The translations under genes and the position numbers were made by a program. From a virus, in IMG/VR virus record IMGVR_UViG_3300027973_000147, positions 1 to 32,890 of that record: 32,890 bases of DNA. One strand, 5' to 3'. The notes beneath the pieces were generated by a model that saw only the letters and a program-made list of their open reading frames with translations, was not told where the DNA came from and ran no database searches. Below are positions 1,752-28,662 of this stretch, in pieces. The first letter of the stretch is position 1. The number at the start of each line of letters is the position of its first letter.

Positions 1752-4109
1752 ATGGCTGTAAATATTGAAGATATGGGTGATTTTGAGGCAGAAATGCCCC
1801 CAGTCGAGGAGGATTTGCTAAATCCGGTCGATTTTGAGGTGGAATTGCCCGATTTGATGGATGAAAACGACGCCGATGTCGAAATTATCATCAGCGAAGG
1901 CGAAATTGACGCCGAAGATGAGGATTTTGACGCAAATTTGGCCGAATTTATGTCGGAAAGCGAGCTTTCTGGCATCGCAGATGACATCGACGAGCTAGTA
2001 ACGGCAGACATTAATAGTCGAAAAGACTGGGCAGATACCTACGTGCGGGGCCTAGAAGTGCTTGGGCTCAAGTATGAGCAGCGTACCGAGCCGTGGGATG
2101 GCGCATGTGGCGTGTTCTCCACCGTGCTGACCGAGGCGGCTATCAGGTTCCAAGCCGAGACAATTATGGAGACTTTTCCGGCTCAAGGGCCGGTAAAAAC
2201 CCAGATTATTGGCGAAATTGACGAGATTAAGGAAGAAGCGGCGGATCGTGTCAGGGATGACATGAACTACCAGCTTACCGAGAAAATGACGGAGTATCGC
2301 TCAGAGCATGAGCGCATGCTGTTTAGCCTTGGACTTGCTGGTGCTGCGTTCAAGAAGGTCTACTTTGACCCGTCCCTAGATCGCCAAGTATCGCTATATG
2401 TCTCGGCTGAAGACCTGATCATGCCGTACGGGGCGTCAAACCTCCAGACGGCTGAGCGTGTTACGCACATGATGCGTAAGACCAAAAACGAGATCCGCAA
2501 GCTGCAAGTAGCTAGGTTTTACCGTGACGTTGAGCTTGGCGAGCCTGTCAGTATCGCAACCGACATCGAGAAGAAGAAAGCCGACGAGCAAGGCTACTCT
2601 ATTACTGACGATGACCGGTATCAGACGTGCGAAGTCCATATTGACTACGACCTGCCGGGATATGAGGACCCTGACGAGATCGCCCTGCCGTACATCATCA
2701 CGTATGAGCGTGGGACTCAGAAAGTTCTAGCAATCCGTCGCAATTGGGACCCAGATGACCAGAAACGACTCAAGCGACAGCACTTCGTGCAGTACAACTA
2801 CATTCCGGGGTTCGGAGTGTATGGCATGGGCCTTATTCATATTATTGGTGGCTATGCTCGTGCCGGTACTTCTCTTATTCGTCAGCTTGTCGACGCTGGT
2901 ACTCTCTCTAACTTGCCGGGTGGACTGAAGACACGGGGGTTGCGGATCAAAGGCGACGACACGCCCATCTCCCCCGGAGAGTTTAGGGACGTGGACATTC
3001 CTAGCGGAGCGTTGAAAGACAACGTAATGCCGCTGCCGTACAAAGAACCTTCGATGGTTCTGTCTGGTCTGTTGGACAAGATCACGGAGGAAGGTCGCAG
3101 GCTTGGTGCTATATCAGATATGAACATATCTGATATGAGTGCAAATGCGCCTGTCGGGACCACGCTGGCTCTGCTTGAGCGCACTCTCAAAACGATGTCT
3201 GCCGTGCAGGCACGGGTGCACTTCTCGATGAAGGAGGAGTTCAAGCTCCTCAAGAACATCATCCGAGACTATACGCCTCCGGAGTATAGCTACACGCCAG
3301 ACTTCACGTCTGACCGCAAGGTCAAGCAAGCTGACTATGACATGGTGGAGGTCATACCGGTCAGCGACCCCAACAGCAGCACGATGGCACAACGCATCAT
3401 GCAGTACCAAGCTGTTATCCAGTTAGCGAGCACCGCGCCTCAGATCTACAACCTGCCAAACCTGCACCGGCAGATGATCGAGATCCTTGGTATTAAGAAT
3501 GGCGAGGACTTGGTTCCGGTCGAGGATGACGAGAAGCCTCGTGATCCGATAAGCGAGAATATGTCAGTGCTCAAGGGTAAACCTGTAAAAGCGTTTATCT
3601 ATCAGGACCACGACGCGCATATTGCAACGCACAATTCGTTCATGCAAGATCCGATGATCATGAAGCAGATGGGCCAGAACCCTCAGGCTCAGATGTTGAT
3701 GGCATCCATGCAAGCACACATTGCTGAACACCTAGGGTTTGCGTATCGCAAGCAGATCGAGGACCGGATGGGCGTGCATATGCCAGCGCCAGATGCCGAG
3801 ATGCCTCCAGAAGTTGAGGTTCAGTTGTCACGCATGGTCGCGCAGGCCAGCCAGCAGCTACTCCAGATTCACCAAGGTCAGGCGGCTCAACAACAGGCGC
3901 AGCAAGTGGCACAAGATCCTCTCATCCAGTTGCAGCAGGCTGAGTTGCAGATCAAGCAGCAAGACGTGCAACGCAAGACTCAGAAAGACCAGACTGACGC
4001 TCAGATTGCACAACAGAAACTTCAGCTTGAGCGGGATCGGATCGGGGTTGACGCAAACATTCGGGCCGCGCAGGTCAGAGCACAGGCTAACCGCCCACAG
4101 GGGAAATAA
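1752..4109 (+). CDS. Portal protein, P22-like
   Basis: This 785-aa protein would form the dodecameric ring at the capsid vertex through which DNA enters and leaves. Residues 1-85 are very acidic and probably disordered. The conserved core starts near residue 90, with EQRTEPWDGACGVF (109-122) and later ANAPVGTTLALLERTL, patterns I associate with P22-like portals of aquatic phages. Residues about 690-780 are glutamine-rich and helical, resembling the barrel region of long portals. The length fits P22-like portals (over 700 aa) better than the shorter HK97 type. It lies directly after the large terminase. An exceptional palindrome lies inside codons 454-462. Confidence 0.92.
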   Translation: MAVNIEDMGDFEAEMPPVEEDLLNPVDFEVELPDLMDENDADVEIIISEGEIDAEDEDFDANLAEFMSESELSGIADDIDELVTADINSRKDWADTYVRGLEVLGLKYEQRTEPWDGACGVFSTVLTEAAIRFQAETIMETFPAQGPVKTQIIGEIDEIKEEAADRVRDDMNYQLTEKMTEYRSEHERMLFSLGLAGAAFKKVYFDPSLDRQVSLYVSAEDLIMPYGASNLQTAERVTHMMRKTKNEIRKLQVARFYRDVELGEPVSIATDIEKKKADEQGYSITDDDRYQTCEVHIDYDLPGYEDPDEIALPYIITYERGTQKVLAIRRNWDPDDQKRLKRQHFVQYNYIPGFGVYGMGLIHIIGGYARAGTSLIRQLVDAGTLSNLPGGLKTRGLRIKGDDTPISPGEFRDVDIPSGALKDNVMPLPYKEPSMVLSGLLDKITEEGRRLGAISDMNISDMSANAPVGTTLALLERTLKTMSAVQARVHFSMKEEFKLLKNIIRDYTPPEYSYTPDFTSDRKVKQADYDMVEVIPVSDPNSSTMAQRIMQYQAVIQLASTAPQIYNLPNLHRQMIEILGIKNGEDLVPVEDDEKPRDPISENMSVLKGKPVKAFIYQDHDAHIATHNSFMQDPMIMKQMGQNPQAQMLMASMQAHIAEHLGFAYRKQIEDRMGVHMPAPDAEMPPEVEVQLSRMVAQASQQLLQIHQGQAAQQQAQQVAQDPLIQLQQAELQIKQQDVQRKTQKDQTDAQIAQQKLQLERDRIGVDANIRAAQVRAQANRPQGK
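3111..3136. repeat. Perfect 12-bp inverted repeat inside the portal gene
   Basis: ATATCAGATATG (3111-3122) is followed by AA and then by its exact reverse complement CATATCTGATAT (3125-3136). The RNA would fold as 11 bp closed by a GAAC loop. It coincides exactly with codons for ISDMNISDM. The two serines use different codons (TCA and TCT), as the palindrome requires. Confidence 0.9.
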
Positions 4110-4307
4110 ATGGATGAACGGATGTTCCGATATTTACAAGAACGCAATCAGAGCAGGAGGGAGTCAATCACGGACTTCCTGAGTTCTGGTGGCGCTAAAG
4201 ACGTTGCAGAGTACCGCGAAGCGGTTGGAGTCATCAAAGGTCTACTCCAAGCAAATCAAGACCTTGAGGAACTTTTTGATCGTATGAAGGAATTTGAGAA
4301 TGAATGA
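4110..4307 (+). CDS. Small helical protein, unknown function
   Basis: This is a 65-aa, charged, probably all-helical protein beginning MDERMFRYLQERNQSR. It starts on the base after the portal stop, with AGGGG six bases upstream of the ATG, and its end overlaps the GroES-like gene by 8 bp, so the three genes are translationally coupled. I recognise no domain. Its position between portal and co-chaperonin suggests a head-assembly accessory, but that is only context. Confidence 0.75.
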   Translation: MDERMFRYLQERNQSRRESITDFLSSGGAKDVAEYREAVGVIKGLLQANQDLEELFDRMKEFENE

Positions 4308-4689
4308 CGCCGTGGATCTATCGCTGCTGCTAAATAAGACCGAAGAACAGAAAGCTACCCAGCTACCCCAGCCCAAAGGCTATAAGATCCTTGTGACATT
4401 GCCTGACATTGACGAGGAATACGAGAACGGAATCCTCAAGGCCAACACGACTGTGCACTACGAACAACTCCTCTCAAATGTCCTTTTCGTAGTCGAGCTT
4501 GGTGATATGGCGTACTCCGACACCACCCGGTTCCCCACTGGCCCGTGGTGCAAAAAAGGCGACTTCATCATGTGCCGCGCCAACACAGGTACGCGCTTCA
4601 AGATCCATGGCCGGGAGTTCCGTCTAATTAATGACGACTCAATTGAGGCAGTGGTTGAAGATCCCCGTGGCATTGGCCGCGTAAACTAA
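4300..4689 (+). CDS. GroES-like co-chaperonin (Cpn10 family)
   Basis: This 129-aa protein resembles GroES, the lid of the GroEL folding chamber. The beta-strand KILVTLP (29-35) leads into a segment where GIL (44-46) could be the hydrophobic tripeptide of the mobile loop that binds GroEL. Then come VLFVVELGDMAYSD (61-74), the roof-hairpin region, and KKGDFIMCR (85-93), which matches the KVGD.V core of Cpn10, and a C-terminal strand set ending near DSIEAVVED. Residues 1-25 extend beyond normal GroES. ATG 4300 is preferred over TTG 4294. The gene sits between portal and scaffold, so its likely clients are head proteins, as for T4 gp31, which supports folding of the T4 capsid protein. Confidence 0.8.
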   Translation: MNDAVDLSLLLNKTEEQKATQLPQPKGYKILVTLPDIDEEYENGILKANTTVHYEQLLSNVLFVVELGDMAYSDTTRFPTGPWCKKGDFIMCRANTGTRFKIHGREFRLINDDSIEAVVEDPRGIGRVN

Positions 4690-6146: not shown

Positions 6147-7082
6147 ATGGCTTATCCGGTTATTAATGGCCCATACGGGCTAGTGCCGGTCAACCTGATG
6201 GGCGGTATTCCGTTCGCTGGGTCTACCCGGATGATTCCGATTGCACAGAACTACGCGACGAACCTGTTTAACGGCGACGTTATCGGTCTGTCTGGTGGTA
6301 ACGCAGTCATCACCCCTTACAACGCCAACAGCACCACCGCAGCGGCGGCAGGGCAGATCATTGGTGTGATGTTGGGTGCGCAGTACCCCGGTACTCCTCC
6401 CATCTTTGGTAACTTGCAAGGCCAGTACTACCCAGCTAGTACTAACCAGCCCGGCATGATTGCTTATGTTATGGACAACCCCACCGCGCTGTTTAAGGCA
6501 TGTGTTGTTACTCAGGCTCAAGGCTCGGCTAATACGCAAGCTAACACCGGCACGACGGTTGGCTACATGTCGCCACGGTTTGTTGGAACGAACGCCTTCC
6601 TCGTCGCCGGTAATTCCGGTAGCACGACGACTGGTAACTCAGCAATGGGCGTGTCCGGTGCTAACCCCACCGTGTCTAGCTCTGTAGCTGGAAACATCGT
6701 TCAGACGGTTGGCACTGGCTCGGCAACTTCGCCTTGTTTGCGCGTTGTTGAGTTGGTTCGGGAAACAGCCGTTACGGTTGCGACCACCCTGTCGAGCAGC
6801 CCATCAAACGCGACCACTTTCACTGTTGCTTCTACCGCCGGTATCCAGCCCGGTATGGCAGTGACGATTGGTGGCACCGTGTATTCGGGCGCAAGCACCG
6901 CACCGTTCCCAACGCTTTCAACTTTGGTTGTTACCGGCGTTGTAACTAGCACTTCTACCATTACCGTTAGTTCGGCAGTGACCGCCACCTCTGGCGCATC
7001 TGTTTCGTTCGTCGGTTTCCCAGAAGTGATCGTTGGCTGGAACTTCGGTTACCACAGCTATCTGCTCGCCGCTGGCGTCTAA
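6147..7082 (+). CDS. Capsid-associated or decoration protein candidate
   Basis: This 311-aa protein is rich in Ala, Gly, Ser and Thr and begins MAYPVINGPYGLVPVNL, a start that I associate with capsid-adjacent proteins of uncultured phages. The body is beta-rich with no membrane segment. Residues 209-288 look like an inserted Ig-like beta module (AGIQPGMAVTIGG, then TSTITVSSAV) that splits the pattern VVELVRE (201-207) from PEVIVGWNFGYHSY (292-305). TAGGAGC lies upstream of the ATG. It directly precedes the major capsid gene, so a decoration or cement role is likely but not shown. Confidence 0.65.
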   Translation: MAYPVINGPYGLVPVNLMGGIPFAGSTRMIPIAQNYATNLFNGDVIGLSGGNAVITPYNANSTTAAAAGQIIGVMLGAQYPGTPPIFGNLQGQYYPASTNQPGMIAYVMDNPTALFKACVVTQAQGSANTQANTGTTVGYMSPRFVGTNAFLVAGNSGSTTTGNSAMGVSGANPTVSSSVAGNIVQTVGTGSATSPCLRVVELVRETAVTVATTLSSSPSNATTFTVASTAGIQPGMAVTIGGTVYSGASTAPFPTLSTLVVTGVVTSTSTITVSSAVTATSGASVSFVGFPEVIVGWNFGYHSYLLAAGV

Positions 7083-7092
7083 GGAGTAAATC

Positions 7093-8004
7093 ATGGCTAT
7101 TTCACGCGCCCAACTACTCAAAGAACTGCTTCCGGGCCTCAACGCCCTGTTCGGTCTTGAGTATGCTCGCTATGGCGAGGAACACAAAGAGATCTACGAC
7201 ACCGAGACCTCTGAGCGTTCATTTGAAGAAGAGACCAAGCTTTCGGGCTTTGGTGCTGCGCCGGTTAAAAACGAAGGTCAGGCAATCTCGTACGACAACG
7301 CACAAGAAGCATGGACCGCTCGTTACAACCACGAGACTGTTGCGATGGGCTTCTCGGTTACCGAAGAAGCAATGGAAGACAACCTGTATGACAGCTTGTC
7401 CAGCCGTTACACCAAAGCATTGGCTCGCGCAATGTCGTACACCAAGCAGGTTAAAGCTGCCACCATTCTGAACAACGGTTTTAACGCCGCGTTCACGTAT
7501 GGTGACGGTAAGCCCCTGTTTAGCACGGCTCACCCGCTGGTCTCTGGTGGTACTAACAGTAACACCCCTTCGACCGCTGCCGATCTTAACGAAACCGCTC
7601 TTGAAAATGCAGTGATTCAGATCGCTGCGTGGACGGACGAGCGTGGTCTGCTGATCGCCGCTAAGCCGAAGAAGTTGATCATCCCGCCTGCTCTGATGTT
7701 CGTTGCGACCCGTCTGTTGGAAACCAGCCTCCGCGTTGGCACTACCGACAACGATATCAACGCGCTGAAGAACAACGGTTCGATCCCTGAGGGTTACACC
7801 GTTAACCACTTCTTGACCGACACGAACGCATGGTTCCTGACCACGGACGTTCCTAACGGTCTGAAGCACTTCGTGCGTGTGCCACTTTCCACTTCGATGG
7901 ACGGTGACTTTGATACCGGTAACGTGCGGTATAAGGCTCGTGAGCGTTATTCGTTCGGCGTGTCTGATCCGCTTGGTATGTACGGCTCGCCCGGTTCGAG
8001 CTAA
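7093..8004 (+). CDS. Major capsid protein, HK97-fold
   Basis: This 303-aa protein should form the icosahedral shell. It resembles the Mu gpT-like group of HK97-fold capsid proteins, with a charged N-terminal arm, the YDTETSERSFEE region (35-46), and YGDGKPLFSTAHP (136-148), a typical motif of the group, followed by helices and strands of the P and A domains. The length is normal. Balanced base composition, a strong GGAG site and its place as the last gene before a strong terminator all fit a highly expressed shell protein. Confidence 0.93.
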   Translation: MAISRAQLLKELLPGLNALFGLEYARYGEEHKEIYDTETSERSFEEETKLSGFGAAPVKNEGQAISYDNAQEAWTARYNHETVAMGFSVTEEAMEDNLYDSLSSRYTKALARAMSYTKQVKAATILNNGFNAAFTYGDGKPLFSTAHPLVSGGTNSNTPSTAADLNETALENAVIQIAAWTDERGLLIAAKPKKLIIPPALMFVATRLLETSLRVGTTDNDINALKNNGSIPEGYTVNHFLTDTNAWFLTTDVPNGLKHFVRVPLSTSMDGDFDTGNVRYKARERYSFGVSDPLGMYGSPGSS

Positions 8005-11566: not shown

Positions 11567-11827
11567 ATGGCTAAATCTCCTGCATGGCAAAGAGCAGAAG
11601 GAAAGGACCCCAAAGGGGGTCTGAATGCGAAGGGACGCGCGTCCGCGAAATCACAAGGGATGAACTTAAAGCCCCCCGCCCCGAAACCAAAAACGAAAGA
11701 AGACGCCGGGAGAAGGAAGAGCTTCTGTTCGAGAATGGAAGGCATGAAGTCGAAACTTACCTCAGCGAAAACAGCCAAAGACCCAAACAGCCGGATTAAC
11801 AAAAGCCTGAGGAAGTGGGCATGTTAA
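11567..11827 (+). CDS. Small basic protein, DUF6321-like
   Basis: This 86-aa, strongly basic protein begins KSPAWQRAEGKDPKGGLNAK and ends KTAKDPNSRINKSLRKWAC. I recognise this pattern as DUF6321, a family common in marine and freshwater phages and of unknown function. It is probably disordered and may bind nucleic acid. The start follows the preceding stop by two bases, and the end overlaps the endonuclease gene. Confidence 0.8.
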   Translation: MAKSPAWQRAEGKDPKGGLNAKGRASAKSQGMNLKPPAPKPKTKEDAGRRKSFCSRMEGMKSKLTSAKTAKDPNSRINKSLRKWAC

Positions 11828-12261
11828 ACACAAAACGTGACTGGGGAAGAGTTCCCAAAGCTCCTGACGGGCAGGGAAGATATCGTTGTAGCAAATGCAA
11901 AGAGTGGAAACTTCCAACCGCGTTTAATAAAAACAAGACCCAAACTTCGGGCTTGTCGTATGCGTGTAAATCTTGCACAAAAGTAGAAGTGCGTAAGTAC
12001 AACTTACCCGCAAAGTATGGTATATCTGCGGCTCAGTTTGCTGAAAAACTTTTGGCGCAAGGCGGAAAATGTGCGTGTTGCTCCGTAGCGTTTGATATCG
12101 AAGGAAAAATATCAGACCGCCCTTGCGTAGACCATAACCACATCACCAATGAAGTTCGTGATTTGCTGTGCAGTCGGTGTAATTTGGCGGCTGGAAATGT
12201 GGGTGACAGCTCTTCTCGTGCTGAACAGTTGATGTCATACTTGAAAAAGTGGAAGTGCTGA
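11821..12261 (+). CDS. Recombination endonuclease VII-like (first copy)
   Basis: This 146-aa His-Me-finger nuclease resembles T4 gp49, which resolves branched DNA before packaging. The zinc ligands are likely C23/C26/C49/C52 and C84/C87/C117/C120. The catalytic motif VDHNHITNEVRDLLCSRCN lies at 103-121, with D104, H105 and H107 and the usual asparagine N121. I chose ATG 11821 because GAGGAAG (11809-11815) is ideally spaced, although GTG 11815 is in frame. Debranching replicated DNA for the terminase fits its late location. A homing nuclease is an alternative, since the HNH-type fold is shared. Confidence 0.88.
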   Translation: MLNTKRDWGRVPKAPDGQGRYRCSKCKEWKLPTAFNKNKTQTSGLSYACKSCTKVEVRKYNLPAKYGISAAQFAEKLLAQGGKCACCSVAFDIEGKISDRPCVDHNHITNEVRDLLCSRCNLAAGNVGDSSSRAEQLMSYLKKWKC

Positions 12262-20742: not shown

Positions 20743-21183
20743 ATGCCATCTTGCGCTGTATGTACTGGAGAGTTTGCCAGAGAGGACCTTATTGTTCATG
20801 GTCGCAGGGACTATTTTCTCTGTAGCGCTTGTAAATCAGACATAAACCGACTTGACCGGTTCGGGTTGTCACCGTCAGATTATGACTTCCTGTTGAAGCT
20901 TCAGGGGTATAATTGTGCTATCTGTGACAACCCCCTCAAACTTAAACAGTACAAGTTTGCGGTAGACCACTGCCACGACTCTGATGATGTTCGTGGGATT
21001 TTGTGTGTGCGGTGTAACACAGCGCTAGGTAGCTTTGACGATGACCCGGACATGATCCTGCGAGCCGCAGAATACTTGAACAACCCGCCAGCCTTGGGTA
21101 GAGTCAAGAAACATGACGGGCGCAAAAAAGTTTCGTTTCTCCGGAGTGAGTACATCAGGAGGCACGGAGGTAGCAATGGCTAA
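20743..21183 (+). CDS. Recombination endonuclease VII-like (second copy)
   Basis: This 146-aa protein is a second endonuclease VII-type His-Me-finger protein. Zinc pairs are C4/C7, C27/C30, C58/C61 and C88/C91. The catalytic motif is VDHCHDSDDVRGILCVRCN (74-92), with D75, H76, H78 and N92. It has the same length as the copy at 11821 but low identity outside the motif. The two may have different substrates, or one may be a mobile nuclease. The end overlaps the endolysin start by 8 bp. Confidence 0.88.
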   Translation: MPSCAVCTGEFAREDLIVHGRRDYFLCSACKSDINRLDRFGLSPSDYDFLLKLQGYNCAICDNPLKLKQYKFAVDHCHDSDDVRGILCVRCNTALGSFDDDPDMILRAAEYLNNPPALGRVKKHDGRKKVSFLRSEYIRRHGGSNG

Positions 21184-24245: not shown

Positions 24246-24571
24246 GCTACCTCATTACGTCAGAATATTTACTATTTCAGGCTGTTGCGCCCAGCCTGCC
24301 CCTTGCGCCTAATGAATACAACCGGCAGTATTTTGATCAGTTTAGTAGCGTCTTGCGGTTGTACTTCAACGAGCGTGATAAGGTTATTGGTCAGTTAAAA
24401 GCCAACGTGCCTTTAACGGTAGCCGAGTTACCCAGTGCGGTTACTTCCGGCGTGGGGTCTAGAGCGTTTGTAACAGATTCTTCTGTATCTACATTTGGCA
24501 CCACGGTAGCCGGTGGCGGGTCAACTAATGTGCCTGTGTATTCAGATGGCACAAATTGGAAAGTGGGTTAA
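24242..24571 (+). CDS. Small tail protein with fibre-tip-like end
   Basis: This 109-aa protein has a helical start (YNRQYFDQFSSVLRLYFNER) common in small proteins next to nozzle genes, and a C-terminal SAVTSGVGSRAFVTDSSV region ending YSDGTNWKVG that resembles fibre tips. It may attach fibres or cap the nozzle. It overlaps the nozzle gene by 4 bp. The function is inferred from position. Confidence 0.78.
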   Translation: MSYLITSEYLLFQAVAPSLPLAPNEYNRQYFDQFSSVLRLYFNERDKVIGQLKANVPLTVAELPSAVTSGVGSRAFVTDSSVSTFGTTVAGGGSTNVPVYSDGTNWKVG

Positions 24572-24573
24572 TT

Positions 24574-27500
24574 ATGGCGGATAGTTGGCAAGCGGGATAT
24601 GACACCCTTCTTAAACAGATGGGTGCGGTTCAAGGGAAAGCGGACGTTTACAAAAATGCGTCCCCTCTGTCCGCCGATACGCACATGCAAAACATTGCCA
24701 AAATTTTGGCAAAAGATTATGGTATTACCAGTATTGGTGATATCGGTGTGCGGTATGAAACTCGCCCTGCTTATGAAACAGGAAGCGATGAATCTCGCAC
24801 GATCATCCCAGAAGAACAACTACCGGTATACTATAACAAAAACAATCCTGACCAAATAATTTCCGCCTATAACAAAAAGTTTGGTTCTGAGAACGAAGGC
24901 GAAGGATTTAGCGAATATAATTTTCAGCCGGTTTCAGACGGGAAAGGTGGCACAATTGCCTTGCCTGTTCAGCAATATAGCAAATCTGGGATAGGCGCAC
25001 TTGCCCAAGATCTTGGGCCGGTTATGTCTGTGGTCAATCTAGCACTTATGGCTGAAGGGGTTCCACCCCTTTACGTAGCCGCAGGTAACGTAGCATTCCA
25101 AGGTGCCGCTGGGAACATCCATAATATTGGAGATGTACTACGAACCGCAGCGCCCGTTTTGGTTGGTGGCCCCGGAATTTTGGGTGATGCAGCTAAAGTC
25201 TATATGGCGTACGACGCCTTTGATAAAGGTAATGTACTTAGTGGGCTGTCTAGCCTCGCCAGCGCCGCTGGTATAGGTGGGTTGGCTAGTGAACTTCGAT
25301 TTATTGCCGCAATAAAAGATGGAAACTTACCCGGAGCGTTGACAGCTTTCGGTGGTATGTTCAATATTCCGCTAAAAGATGATTTAGGGAAGATAATTAA
25401 AGATGCAGATGGTGTAGTTCAAACAATAGGGAATTTTAAAATTGCTGGGGGGGCCGACGACTATATTACTGTGAAAGATGTAGTACAGGGCGCAAGTATT
25501 GCTGCCAACTTATTGTCTAGCAAACCAAATTACGGGCTGGCTATTCAGATGGCCGGGGACCTTGCTACCAGTAAAGACACAATTCTAGCGGGTAGAGCTG
25601 TATCTTTATTGGAAGCGGTCGCTTCTGAGAATCCCAGTGCTATTAACAATGCGGTTCTTAGCCTCGCTGGTCAGGTTAATAAGAAAGCTCCCGGCTCGGC
25701 CCCAATTGAAAACAGAACCGCAAATGCTGCGATTGCTGCGGCGACTGCACCTGATACTTCTGCTGCGGCTAACCAAGCCATAGCCAACGCGGACCCACTA
25801 AGTAATCTCACTGCAACAGATCTTGTAGCTAGAAACGCAGGGAACCAACTCACACAAGAACAAATTGCGGAGTTAAATGTTGCAAACGCCAGCGGTCTTC
25901 TTCAAGCAGACTTAGGTACAGGTGCTAAGTTAGGTACCGTAAATGTTACCGGGTCAACCCCTTCTTTTGTAAATGACGACACGATAACAGCGGGGGATAT
26001 AAAGTTAACGTCCCCAATTAGTCAACTTACGGCTAATCAAATTGCTGCACTTACCTCTACCAATTTAACCTCTTTAAATACCAAAGTTGCCCCCGCACTA
26101 ACCTCTGTACAAGTTACGGGTCAGAAAGAAGCTATTGGTTTAAATGATGACACTCTGACGGATACAGGTATAAAAGATACTACTGGTGGAAAAAAAGTAA
26201 CTCTTACGTCTGCTCAAATAGCCGCGCTTACCTCCGGGAATCTTACGTCTGCTCAAATAGCCGCACTAGACACCAAGGCTACTAATACGTTAGATACCGT
26301 AACAGTCAGGGCTACAGCAGATCTTATTGGTGCGAATAACGACACATTGACGGATACAGGCACAAAAACCACTTCGCAGATAACTAAGCTTACGTCTAGT
26401 CAGGTAGACGTAATTTCAACAGATAAAATCACCACGCTTTCAACAGATAAAATCACCACGCTTTCAACAGATAAAATTACTACGCTTCCAACAGATAAAA
26501 TCACCACCCTCACTTCTAATCAAATCGCTACCGGTACATCAGGGTCAACTGTTCTTACGTCCGACCAAATTGGTGCCATAACTACAACGCCAGCTCGTGG
26601 ACTGCAAGCACTACCGACTTCTGAAGCACGGTATTGGCGTCAGACTGGGGCACAGGGAACTGGTGGCAAAGGTGGTGTTAGGTTCTTTGACTGGTACGAT
26701 ACGCCTGAAAACAGGACAATGGCCCCCCCTGCAATGACGACGGCGACTTTTGGGGCGTTAACATCTCAACAGGTACCTATTTTAAAAGGTGGTGGTAAAG
26801 TGAAAGATCTATCTTCAAACGAAATGGTGCAGCATTTTGCTGGCGGCGGGGTATCTACTTCGCCTTCAGAGGATATCGGACATCTCCTGTGGCGTGTTGG
26901 TATAAACCGATATATGGCAGATGGTACGCGGACCGACGATTACGCCAGAATGGAAATTGATGAGGCTGCAACCATACTGCGAAGCTATGGTATAAACCCT
27001 ACCGGAATGCACGCAAGAACAGTGGCTAATGAAATACGAAAATTATTTCCTGATGTTCCCCATATTACAGTTATGGGTGATTTCGTATCTCCGCAATCCG
27101 CTACAGGTGGTGGTGCGACGGGAGGTGGTACAACGACAGGTGGAACTACAGGAATTGCAGGAATTGCGGGGACTACGGGGGCCGCAGGAACGGCTGGAGC
27201 GGGGAAATCGCTTAGCGTAATAAGTCATACTATTGCTCAATCTGCGCTATCAAGTAAGGGCCTTGATCCGTCAAAAATGTCTTATGCGCAGATGTCGGCT
27301 GAATTAGAGAAATTATATCCCGGTGAGAAGTTTAATATTGTTACGGACACCGGAACTACAAAAACTACAGGAACCACAGGCGGAACCACAGGCGGAACCA
27401 CAGGCGGAACCACAGGCGGAACCACAGGCGGAACCACAGGCGGAACAACGACAGGAACTACAAGCCCGGCTACGCTTACATCCAGCCAACTTCTCGCATT

Positions 27501-28662
27501 AACCACGACTCCAGCGTTAGGTCTACAGTCATTGCCGACTTCTGACGTGCGTAAAGTAATATTACCAGCGCCGGTAACTACAACAGCGCCGGTAACTACA
27601 ACAGCACCGGTAACCACAACAACACCGGTAACTACAACAGCACCTGTAACTACAACAGCCACCGCTGCAACCGCCCCTACGGCAAAACAATATTTCAATC
27701 AAGCAACGAATCGATATTACACAGACCCTACCGGAACATGGCAACCCCCCGCCGGTTGGACTCAAACAGGACTAAAAGGCGGTGGCGAAGTGGAAACTAA
27801 ACATTTTGATGGCGGTGGGGATGTTAGTTACGGGTACGACTGGGCAGAAGATCCTAGCTACGCTGATTACAGTCTGGGGATAGACCCCGGAGTTATGAAC
27901 ACCGACTATTCTAATATTTTTGACTATGATACAGGAATTGACAGTACCGCTGCTGGCAATTTTAATTACGAAGAAGACACTCTTACCCCTGCGCAACGTG
28001 AAGACTTAAATAACGCGCGTTGGGAAAGCGGCTACTTTGGGACTGAAGAGGATATAGCTAAAAATTACGGGAACGAAGGTAGGGCATACTCGGGCGAGAA
28101 CGCTATAGACCCGGTAACGGGCAGTCCAATAAATGCAAAAGTTGGCGTCCCTACTAGATCTCTCAAACCCAACCCACTCAAAGGTTTAGCCGATGCGGCT
28201 AAAAAGAACCCAGACCTAATGAAGATGCTGCTGGCCGCTGGGCTTGGCGGTCTTCTTGGTTACGCAGGGCGTCCAAAAGGTTTTAACCCTAAGGGTATGC
28301 AGGGGGGTAGCCTTGGTCTTAGCCAAAGCCAAGTCCATGGCGCTCTCAAGGGTGTGCCGGTTCAACGTGCTGAAGGTGGTGAAATTGATGGTTACGCTGG
28401 AGGCGGTGGATTGCGTTACCTCAAAAGCGCAGAGGACGGCATGGCCGACAAGATTCCTGCTACCATTGACAACAAGCAACCGGCGAAACTTAGCGGTGGT
28501 GAGTTTGTAATCCCTGCCGACGTGGTATCTCATTTAGGAAACGGCAACTCTGAGGCCGGTGCTAAACAACTTTATGCCATGATGGACCGCATCCGTCACG
28601 CCCGCACCGGTAATAAAGAGCAGGGCAAGCAGATTAACCCGGCTAAATTTACGCCAAAATAA
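24574..28662 (+). CDS. Large repeat-rich virion or ejection protein
   Basis: This is a 1362-aa protein with ATG 24574 chosen over TTG 24556. A hydrophobic glycine/alanine region (about 140-240) may be membrane-active. Residues about 480-680 contain LTSxQIxAL repeats, then four tandem STDKITTL units, GGTT units and PVTTTA units. GG tags appear as KGGGKV (about 736), KGGGEV (about 1067) and EGGEIDGYAGGGG (about 1265). The C-terminal ~75 residues (KLSGGEFVIPADVVSHLGNG and following) are a conserved tail domain that I associate with aquatic-phage proteins. An internal or ejected role, or a tail-associated adhesin, is inferred. No enzyme motif is visible. Confidence 0.75.
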   Translation: MADSWQAGYDTLLKQMGAVQGKADVYKNASPLSADTHMQNIAKILAKDYGITSIGDIGVRYETRPAYETGSDESRTIIPEEQLPVYYNKNNPDQIISAYNKKFGSENEGEGFSEYNFQPVSDGKGGTIALPVQQYSKSGIGALAQDLGPVMSVVNLALMAEGVPPLYVAAGNVAFQGAAGNIHNIGDVLRTAAPVLVGGPGILGDAAKVYMAYDAFDKGNVLSGLSSLASAAGIGGLASELRFIAAIKDGNLPGALTAFGGMFNIPLKDDLGKIIKDADGVVQTIGNFKIAGGADDYITVKDVVQGASIAANLLSSKPNYGLAIQMAGDLATSKDTILAGRAVSLLEAVASENPSAINNAVLSLAGQVNKKAPGSAPIENRTANAAIAAATAPDTSAAANQAIANADPLSNLTATDLVARNAGNQLTQEQIAELNVANASGLLQADLGTGAKLGTVNVTGSTPSFVNDDTITAGDIKLTSPISQLTANQIAALTSTNLTSLNTKVAPALTSVQVTGQKEAIGLNDDTLTDTGIKDTTGGKKVTLTSAQIAALTSGNLTSAQIAALDTKATNTLDTVTVRATADLIGANNDTLTDTGTKTTSQITKLTSSQVDVISTDKITTLSTDKITTLSTDKITTLPTDKITTLTSNQIATGTSGSTVLTSDQIGAITTTPARGLQALPTSEARYWRQTGAQGTGGKGGVRFFDWYDTPENRTMAPPAMTTATFGALTSQQVPILKGGGKVKDLSSNEMVQHFAGGGVSTSPSEDIGHLLWRVGINRYMADGTRTDDYARMEIDEAATILRSYGINPTGMHARTVANEIRKLFPDVPHITVMGDFVSPQSATGGGATGGGTTTGGTTGIAGIAGTTGAAGTAGAGKSLSVISHTIAQSALSSKGLDPSKMSYAQMSAELEKLYPGEKFNIVTDTGTTKTTGTTGGTTGGTTGGTTGGTTGGTTGGTTTGTTSPATLTSSQLLALTTTPALGLQSLPTSDVRKVILPAPVTTTAPVTTTAPVTTTTPVTTTAPVTTTATAATAPTAKQYFNQATNRYYTDPTGTWQPPAGWTQTGLKGGGEVETKHFDGGGDVSYGYDWAEDPSYADYSLGIDPGVMNTDYSNIFDYDTGIDSTAAGNFNYEEDTLTPAQREDLNNARWESGYFGTEEDIAKNYGNEGRAYSGENAIDPVTGSPINAKVGVPTRSLKPNPLKGLADAAKKNPDLMKMLLAAGLGGLLGYAGRPKGFNPKGMQGGSLGLSQSQVHGALKGVPVQRAEGGEIDGYAGGGGLRYLKSAEDGMADKIPATIDNKQPAKLSGGEFVIPADVVSHLGNGNSEAGAKQLYAMMDRIRHARTGNKEQGKQINPAKFTPK
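26203..26264 (+). repeat. Exact 23-bp direct repeat of a LTSAQIAAL unit
   Basis: CTTACGTCTGCTCAAATAGC plus CGC occurs at 26203-26225 and again at 26242-26264, 39 bp apart. Each copy encodes LTSAQIAA. The 39-bp offset equals 13 residues, so the frame is kept. Confidence 0.85.
26416..26511 (+). repeat. Four 24-bp tandem units (STDKITTL)
   Basis: Four consecutive in-frame 24-bp units encode STDKITTL three times and PTDKITTL once. The DNA units are near-identical, indicating recent tandem expansion. Confidence 0.88.
27370..27441 (+). repeat. Six perfect 12-bp tandem units
   Basis: GGAACCACAGGC occurs six times without mismatch, encoding Gly/Thr (GTTG) units. Imperfect copies flank the array, which makes it a candidate variable-number repeat. 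Confidence 0.93.
27568..27657 (+). repeat. Five 18-bp tandem units (APVTTT)
   Basis: Five near-identical 18-bp units of type GCGCCGGTAACTACAACA encode APVTTT repeats, a flexible linker-like tract. Confidence 0.9.

Follow-up and report, generated by a model that had tools for sequence, protein, structure and literature searches.

Why should a phage make a GroES of its own when its capsid protein is small? Chamber size is the usual explanation in T4: there, according to passages of PMC3012670, gp31 and GroEL fold gp23, and passages of PMC6318259 tie the larger chamber and the missing roof loops of gp31 to a substrate of about 56 kDa. By the size argument a capsid protein of about 33 kDa fits the ordinary GroEL–GroES chamber, yet the lid, as we shall call the phage co-chaperonin, is present in every record tested of the lineage with this capsid protein. 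A lid that accompanies a small capsid protein allows 'size' to be told apart from 'chemistry or timing' when one asks why a phage has a GroES, and it could reveal how protein folding is adapted by a virus to the shell it builds. The locus discussed here belongs to the virus record IMGVR_UViG_3300027973_000147, the entire 32,890 bases of which, probably a fragment, constitute our window.

The lid gene and its place in the head operon

The original prediction, made from the DNA letters, had put a Cpn10-like gene inside a head operon. It does lie there, with the portal gene upstream and scaffold-like and gpT-type capsid genes downstream (Table 1), the capsid gene being about 2.4 kb away in the window. 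It had further been placed between portal and scaffold: both flank it, but a 65-residue ORF that had gone unmentioned separates it from the portal gene, and shares eight bases with its start. That start leaves some latitude, as an in-frame TTG at 4294 is an alternative possibility, and AAGGAA at 4287–4292 makes a plausible ribosome-binding site. The N-terminal extension, announced as 25 residues long, is present and measures about 22–25 residues; its last part is conserved through to a GY pair (..EEKA.QLP.P.GY), with P23 and P25 invariant in all 57 non-redundant close relatives, and residues 1–20 are modelled with low confidence.

Table 1. Positions in the window of the lid gene, its notable segments and its neighbours.
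Feature	Position	Strand	Basis or remark
Cpn10/GroES-like co-chaperonin (lid) gene, 129 aa	4300–4689	+	ORF, PHROG, family profile and fold match
N-terminal extension, residues 1–23	4300–4368	+	Start variable; ..EEKA.QLP.P motif at its end conserved
Mobile-loop region, residues 36–60	4405–4479	+	Four residues longer than in cellular GroES; predicted helix 49–57
Codons of I45-L46-K47, aligned to GroES I25-V26-L27 (GroEL-contacting tripeptide)	4432–4440	+	Sequence alignment
Roof segment, residues 68–87 (G...FP.GPWCKKG)	4501–4560	+	About GroES length; alignment
Helical ORF, 65 aa	4110–4307	+	Precedes and overlaps the lid gene; PHROG 32603 for some relatives' counterparts
Portal protein gene	1752–4109	+	PHROG portal, E=3.8e-19
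Scaffold-like gene, charged, helix-rich, 323 aa	4700–5671	+	Function inferred from position and composition; PHROG of unknown function
Major capsid protein gene, Mu gpT-like, 303 aa, 33 kDa	7093–8004	+	Pfam PF10124, E=9.1e-10; PHROG 371, E=1.4e-22

A homologous co-chaperonin GroES gene is found in HTVC023P-type pelagiphages, where passages of PMC9599517 list GroES among 13 core genes, in the roseophages CRP-901/902, in Caulobacter phage RW and in phage DSL-LC04. All share the order seen in the window, namely a small ORF, the lid, a scaffold-like ORF, an ORF of about 155 residues, a further ORF and the gpT-type capsid gene, whereas gene 31 of T4, which encodes gp31, sits between rIII and 31.1. 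In most of the named relatives the small ORF ahead of the lid carries a 'Y....G...GL' pattern. Directly ahead of the capsid gene of the window, a 311-residue ORF (6147–7082) has no family match; at this position the ORF of relatives runs to only about 190 residues, and that of the window may have an added C-terminal domain. No solved structure related by sequence to the portal, the capsid or this 6147–7082 protein was found at E<=1.

A divergent protein of predicted Cpn10 fold

The lid matches the co-chaperonin GroES family of PHROG (3188) at E=3.1e-7, over positions 4–95 of 96. Taken alone, it aligns with the Pfam Cpn10 profile (PF00166) over its whole length (6–93 of 93) at E=0.026 and 15 bits, below the cut-off of 21.1 bits; 42 of 49 family members match that profile at E<=0.1, the best of them at 6.4e-6. 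An AlphaFold model built from 49 sequences (pLDDT 79, pTM 0.69), when submitted to Foldseek, placed Cpn10 chains first among solved structures (E 5.2e-6). Its best fold match is a GroES from the GroEL football complex (Z 10.4 over 91 residues, rmsd 2.7), with E. coli GroES (1aon) at Z 8.6 and T4 gp31, which like RB49 CocO is a phage protein of Cpn10 fold, at Z 7.3–7.9. The 16 top rows by Z (7.3–10.4) comprise 15 Cpn10, GroES or gp31 entries and one chain of 7ekq (CrClpP-S2c), and the next value is 5.5, that of the best unrelated barrel, a reductase. The claim that the predicted fold would be that of Cpn10 thus held, and the view that the gene encodes a divergent protein of this fold is well supported by profile and model together.

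How far it departs from bacterial GroES is another matter. Fold and full-length alignment are common to both, but identity is about 20%, the lid of the window has extensions at its N- and C-termini, its loop is four residues longer in the alignment, and a Lys stands where bacterial GroES has Ile or Leu at the third position of the tripeptide that contacts GroEL. Because this tripeptide reads I45-L46-K47 and departs from the hydrophobic IVL type, we would class the protein, on its sequence, as a divergent Cpn10-fold relative and not as a functional GroES.

Relatives and selection

At least 80 IMG/VR loci carry relatives of the lid at 57–93% identity, and a tblastn search at E<=1 found one in 13 of 50,697 phage records, 11 of which are annotated as GroES or co-chaperone and two as hypothetical. 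A phage GroES of this kind is, as these annotations tell, already known. Seven of the lid records were opened. In each, a small ORF precedes the lid and a scaffold-like ORF follows it; the capsid gene comes later downstream, except in MinM2, whose record stops ahead of it and has a capsid match at the opposite end. The ratio dN/dS is 0.04–0.20 in every region of the lid (16 independent pairs). Given such values and the span of identity among relatives, the comparison of sequences argues that the gene is not a chance ORF.

When the window is set beside its relative L001 (lid at 3476–3865), the differences between the two proteins are confined to residues 41–54: the loop carries 12 nonsynonymous changes, while the core has 24 synonymous ones and not a single nonsynonymous. 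A recombined patch is possible, or a loop adapted to the host. Positive selection on the loop was considered and rejected, as dN/dS over the 16 independent pairs is 0.078 in the loop and 0.040 in the core, so that the contrast between these two lids is not general in the family.

We found no description of the capsid linkage or of the Lys anchor in the open-licence literature, which is weak evidence of absence. Passages of PMC9382816 on the cyanophage Pam1 do not mention GroES, those of PMC10149686, PMC6487183 and PMC3542282 merely mention GroES or its parts, and a passage of PMC4294664 describes a GroES gene in a siphovirus.

Linkage to the gpT-type capsid gene

A search with the capsid protein reached 22 phage records, that is, the 13 that bear a lid and nine more. 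Seven of these nine were opened, MW202604 (equal to MW202601 in length and in the position of its match) and MT836833 (10.8 kb) being left out of the count, and Cpn10 was present in 7/7 of these named records, reached via the capsid gene and not via the lid. An annotated lid lies upstream of the capsid gene in five of them. A direct tie between lid and capsid is less clear in the other two, because the Cpn10 gene of vir526 stands upstream of the terminase gene, and the match in ct7ZZ929, which covers only part of the profile, falls outside the head operon. Taking 14 named phages and eight large IMG/VR contigs with a gpT-type capsid gene, we found Cpn10 in all 22, over the Pfam cut-off in 17; nine were first reached via the lid (seven named phages, L065 and L068), which leaves 13 as the unbiased test of the association. 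The control set consisted of 12 phages that share only a related terminase, distant relatives picked by hand among 60 matches listed; Cpn10 appeared in none of them, and T4 was detected in the same test. Fisher's test for 22/22 against 0/12 gives p=2e-9, a value that is too favourable, since neither relatedness nor the selection of the phages enters into it.

The linkage can also be read in both directions in IMG/VR. Wherever at least 3200 bp were available upstream of the capsid gene (54 of 80 loci), a lid was found 1.95–2.5 kb upstream (54/54); wherever at least 3200 bp were available downstream of the lid (144 of 254 loci, in four phage groups of 37, 38, 60 and 9), a gpT-type capsid gene followed at about 2–2.6 kb (144/144). 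The phages behind these co-occurrence counts are related to one another, which makes the counts non-independent, and adjoining head genes also descend together. The linkage supports a functional tie between lid and capsid protein, as far as gene order can speak for one, though part of it reflects shared descent of head operons. In a virus assigned to Methanomicrobiales (L171), a Cpn10 gene (1027–1383) lies upstream of the terminase gene and is accompanied by a related capsid protein.

The anchor residue and the mobile loop

In GroES, passages of PMC3514286 have the IVL tripeptide touch L234, L237 and V264 of GroEL, and report that an L27A GroES showed no interaction with GroEL. The loop of the lid had been called atypical for a GIL at 44–46. 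Atypical it is, but the odd residue is K47, which follows G44-I45-L46: aligned to Cpn10, by profile or with MAFFT, the tripeptide is I45-L46-K47. The equation of K47 with Leu27 comes from sequence alignment of the loop. K47 is invariant in 57/57 non-redundant close relatives, the window included, and the two residues ahead of it are hydrophobic in all 57, first Leu, Ile or Val, then Ile, Leu, Val, Ala or Phe.

A tree of the lids was built from 107 non-redundant proteins (292 in all) with the loop columns left out. As its columns are few and many of its forks open, only the large two-way split was put to use. In the clade of the window (58 members, SH-aLRT 98) the third residue of the tripeptide is Lys in 53, Met in three and Arg in two, never aliphatic (0/58); in the 49 lids outside it, it is hydrophobic (L, I, V, F) in 47, with one Met and one Ser. 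Cellular GroES have Ile or Leu there in all 39 counted (9 + 30), the 30 being the best-scoring loci of one phylum, with loci read for 30 among 74 matches in 60 genomes. Left out of the loop alignment were L214 (the second GroES of one genome, its third residue being I), two proteins in long frames that were not extracted (L216 and L227), L226 (divergent, no Lys), two of the Lys type that belong to the clade of the window (L223 and L228) and seven further Cpn10 matches without a locus.

The anchor is not the only part of the loop to have changed. Lids of the HTVC023P type and those of CRP-901/902, RW and DSL-LC04 combine Leu, Phe or a similar third residue with a loop that begins KT.GG, whereas the clade of the window combines Lys with a mostly YESG-like start. 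The Thr of the KT.GG stretch has become Tyr, Phe or His in 48 of the 53 Lys rows; since the remaining five keep Thr together with Lys, the change to Lys is probably older than the loss of KT.GG. Position 55 is Glu or Asp in 53/53 Lys rows as against 16/48 among rows whose third residue is none of Lys, Arg and Met. This co-occurrence suggests a contact within the loop between Lys47 and the acidic residue; shared descent could also explain it. The AlphaFold model has a helix at residues 49–57, and this helix is predicted from the model of the window lid alone, that of an HTVC027P-type lid (27 sequences) reaching a pLDDT of 46.

How the lid might act on the host chaperonin

We can now come back to the reason for a phage lid. 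The reading that we favour, with fair though far from complete confidence, is that the lid would replace host GroES on host GroEL, mainly for the folding of the gpT-type capsid protein, by way of a contact retuned in the clade. The phage-made protein, presumably a heptamer, would take the place of host GroES during head assembly; its main client would be the capsid protein encoded some 2.4 kb downstream, and GroEL would be bound through the residues around I45-L46. The hydrophobic contact lost at the third position might be replaced by the aliphatic part of K47, or by a K47–E55 salt bridge that orders the loop. The statement that the lid 'binds GroEL like GroES' is weakened by the change of the anchor to Lys, in view of what is reported for L27A. 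What the GroES–GroEL contact requires could in turn be probed with the natural swap of Leu27 for Lys, Met or Arg.

A phage co-chaperonin without a phage GroEL is a trait of the gp31 type, and the records with a gpT-type capsid gene share it: GroEL (PF00118) was found in 0/22 of them, the positive control being detected in 14/14 genomes, and there is none in the window record, possibly a fragment. The parallel with T4 that had been drawn for this locus is not supported in its details when set against the gp31 passages of PMC6318259. The capsid protein is of 33 kDa here and about 56 kDa in T4, and gp31 is without roof loops whereas residues 68–87 of the lid keep a roof of about GroES length. As a consequence the size argument is not transferable.

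One may also entertain the thought, as a tentative one, that this widespread clade dropped its Leu27-type anchor, GroEL being gripped by a salt-bridged, partly ordered Lys loop (K47–E55), or the protein having become a GroEL-free capsid chaperone. As an alternative in its own right, and the main rival to the reading that we favour, a ring of Cpn10 fold independent of GroEL would act on capsid, scaffold or portal, the clade having lost GroEL binding. An aliphatic residue absent from the Leu27 position throughout the clade, the replacement of the KT.GG Thr and a predicted helix that suggests a less mobile loop all point that way; yet the two residues before K47 remain hydrophobic in every close relative, and most outgroup relatives have a canonical loop of the GGI-I-L type, so we consider it unlikely. 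A general supplement to GroES, with which the phage would increase the amount of lid available to all its proteins at a late stage of infection and favour none of them as client, would fit the Cpn10 homology and passages of PMC6318259 and PMC3012670 in which gp31 is reported to stand in for GroES with host proteins; it does not predict a linkage that tracks one type of capsid protein, and the changed anchor speaks against a simple copy of GroES, which makes it improbable in our eyes. That the lid would cap or jam GroEL for host takeover instead of aiding folding is very hard to believe, since purifying selection acts on the lid, which in each of the four phage groups tested precedes the capsid gene; that an altered anchor could change release is the one point in its favour.

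Replacement of host GroES, which we continue to prefer, brings up the identity of the host. Matches to the lid in genome contigs amount to 15 loci (L173–L187), all in metagenome-assembled genomes of unrelated groups, archaea included, and these look like phage contigs placed in wrong bins. Three records, OQ594354, OL906435 and PP438419, have identical length (65,014 bases) and match scores and are listed with three different cyanobacterial hosts; these host labels deserve a check.

Other features of the record

No tRNA genes were found in the window. An ORF of 1368 residues at 24556–28662, with low-complexity repeats of the TTGG and PVTTTA types, has no PHROG match, and two separate endonuclease VII-like genes are present, at 11815–12261 and 20743–21183.
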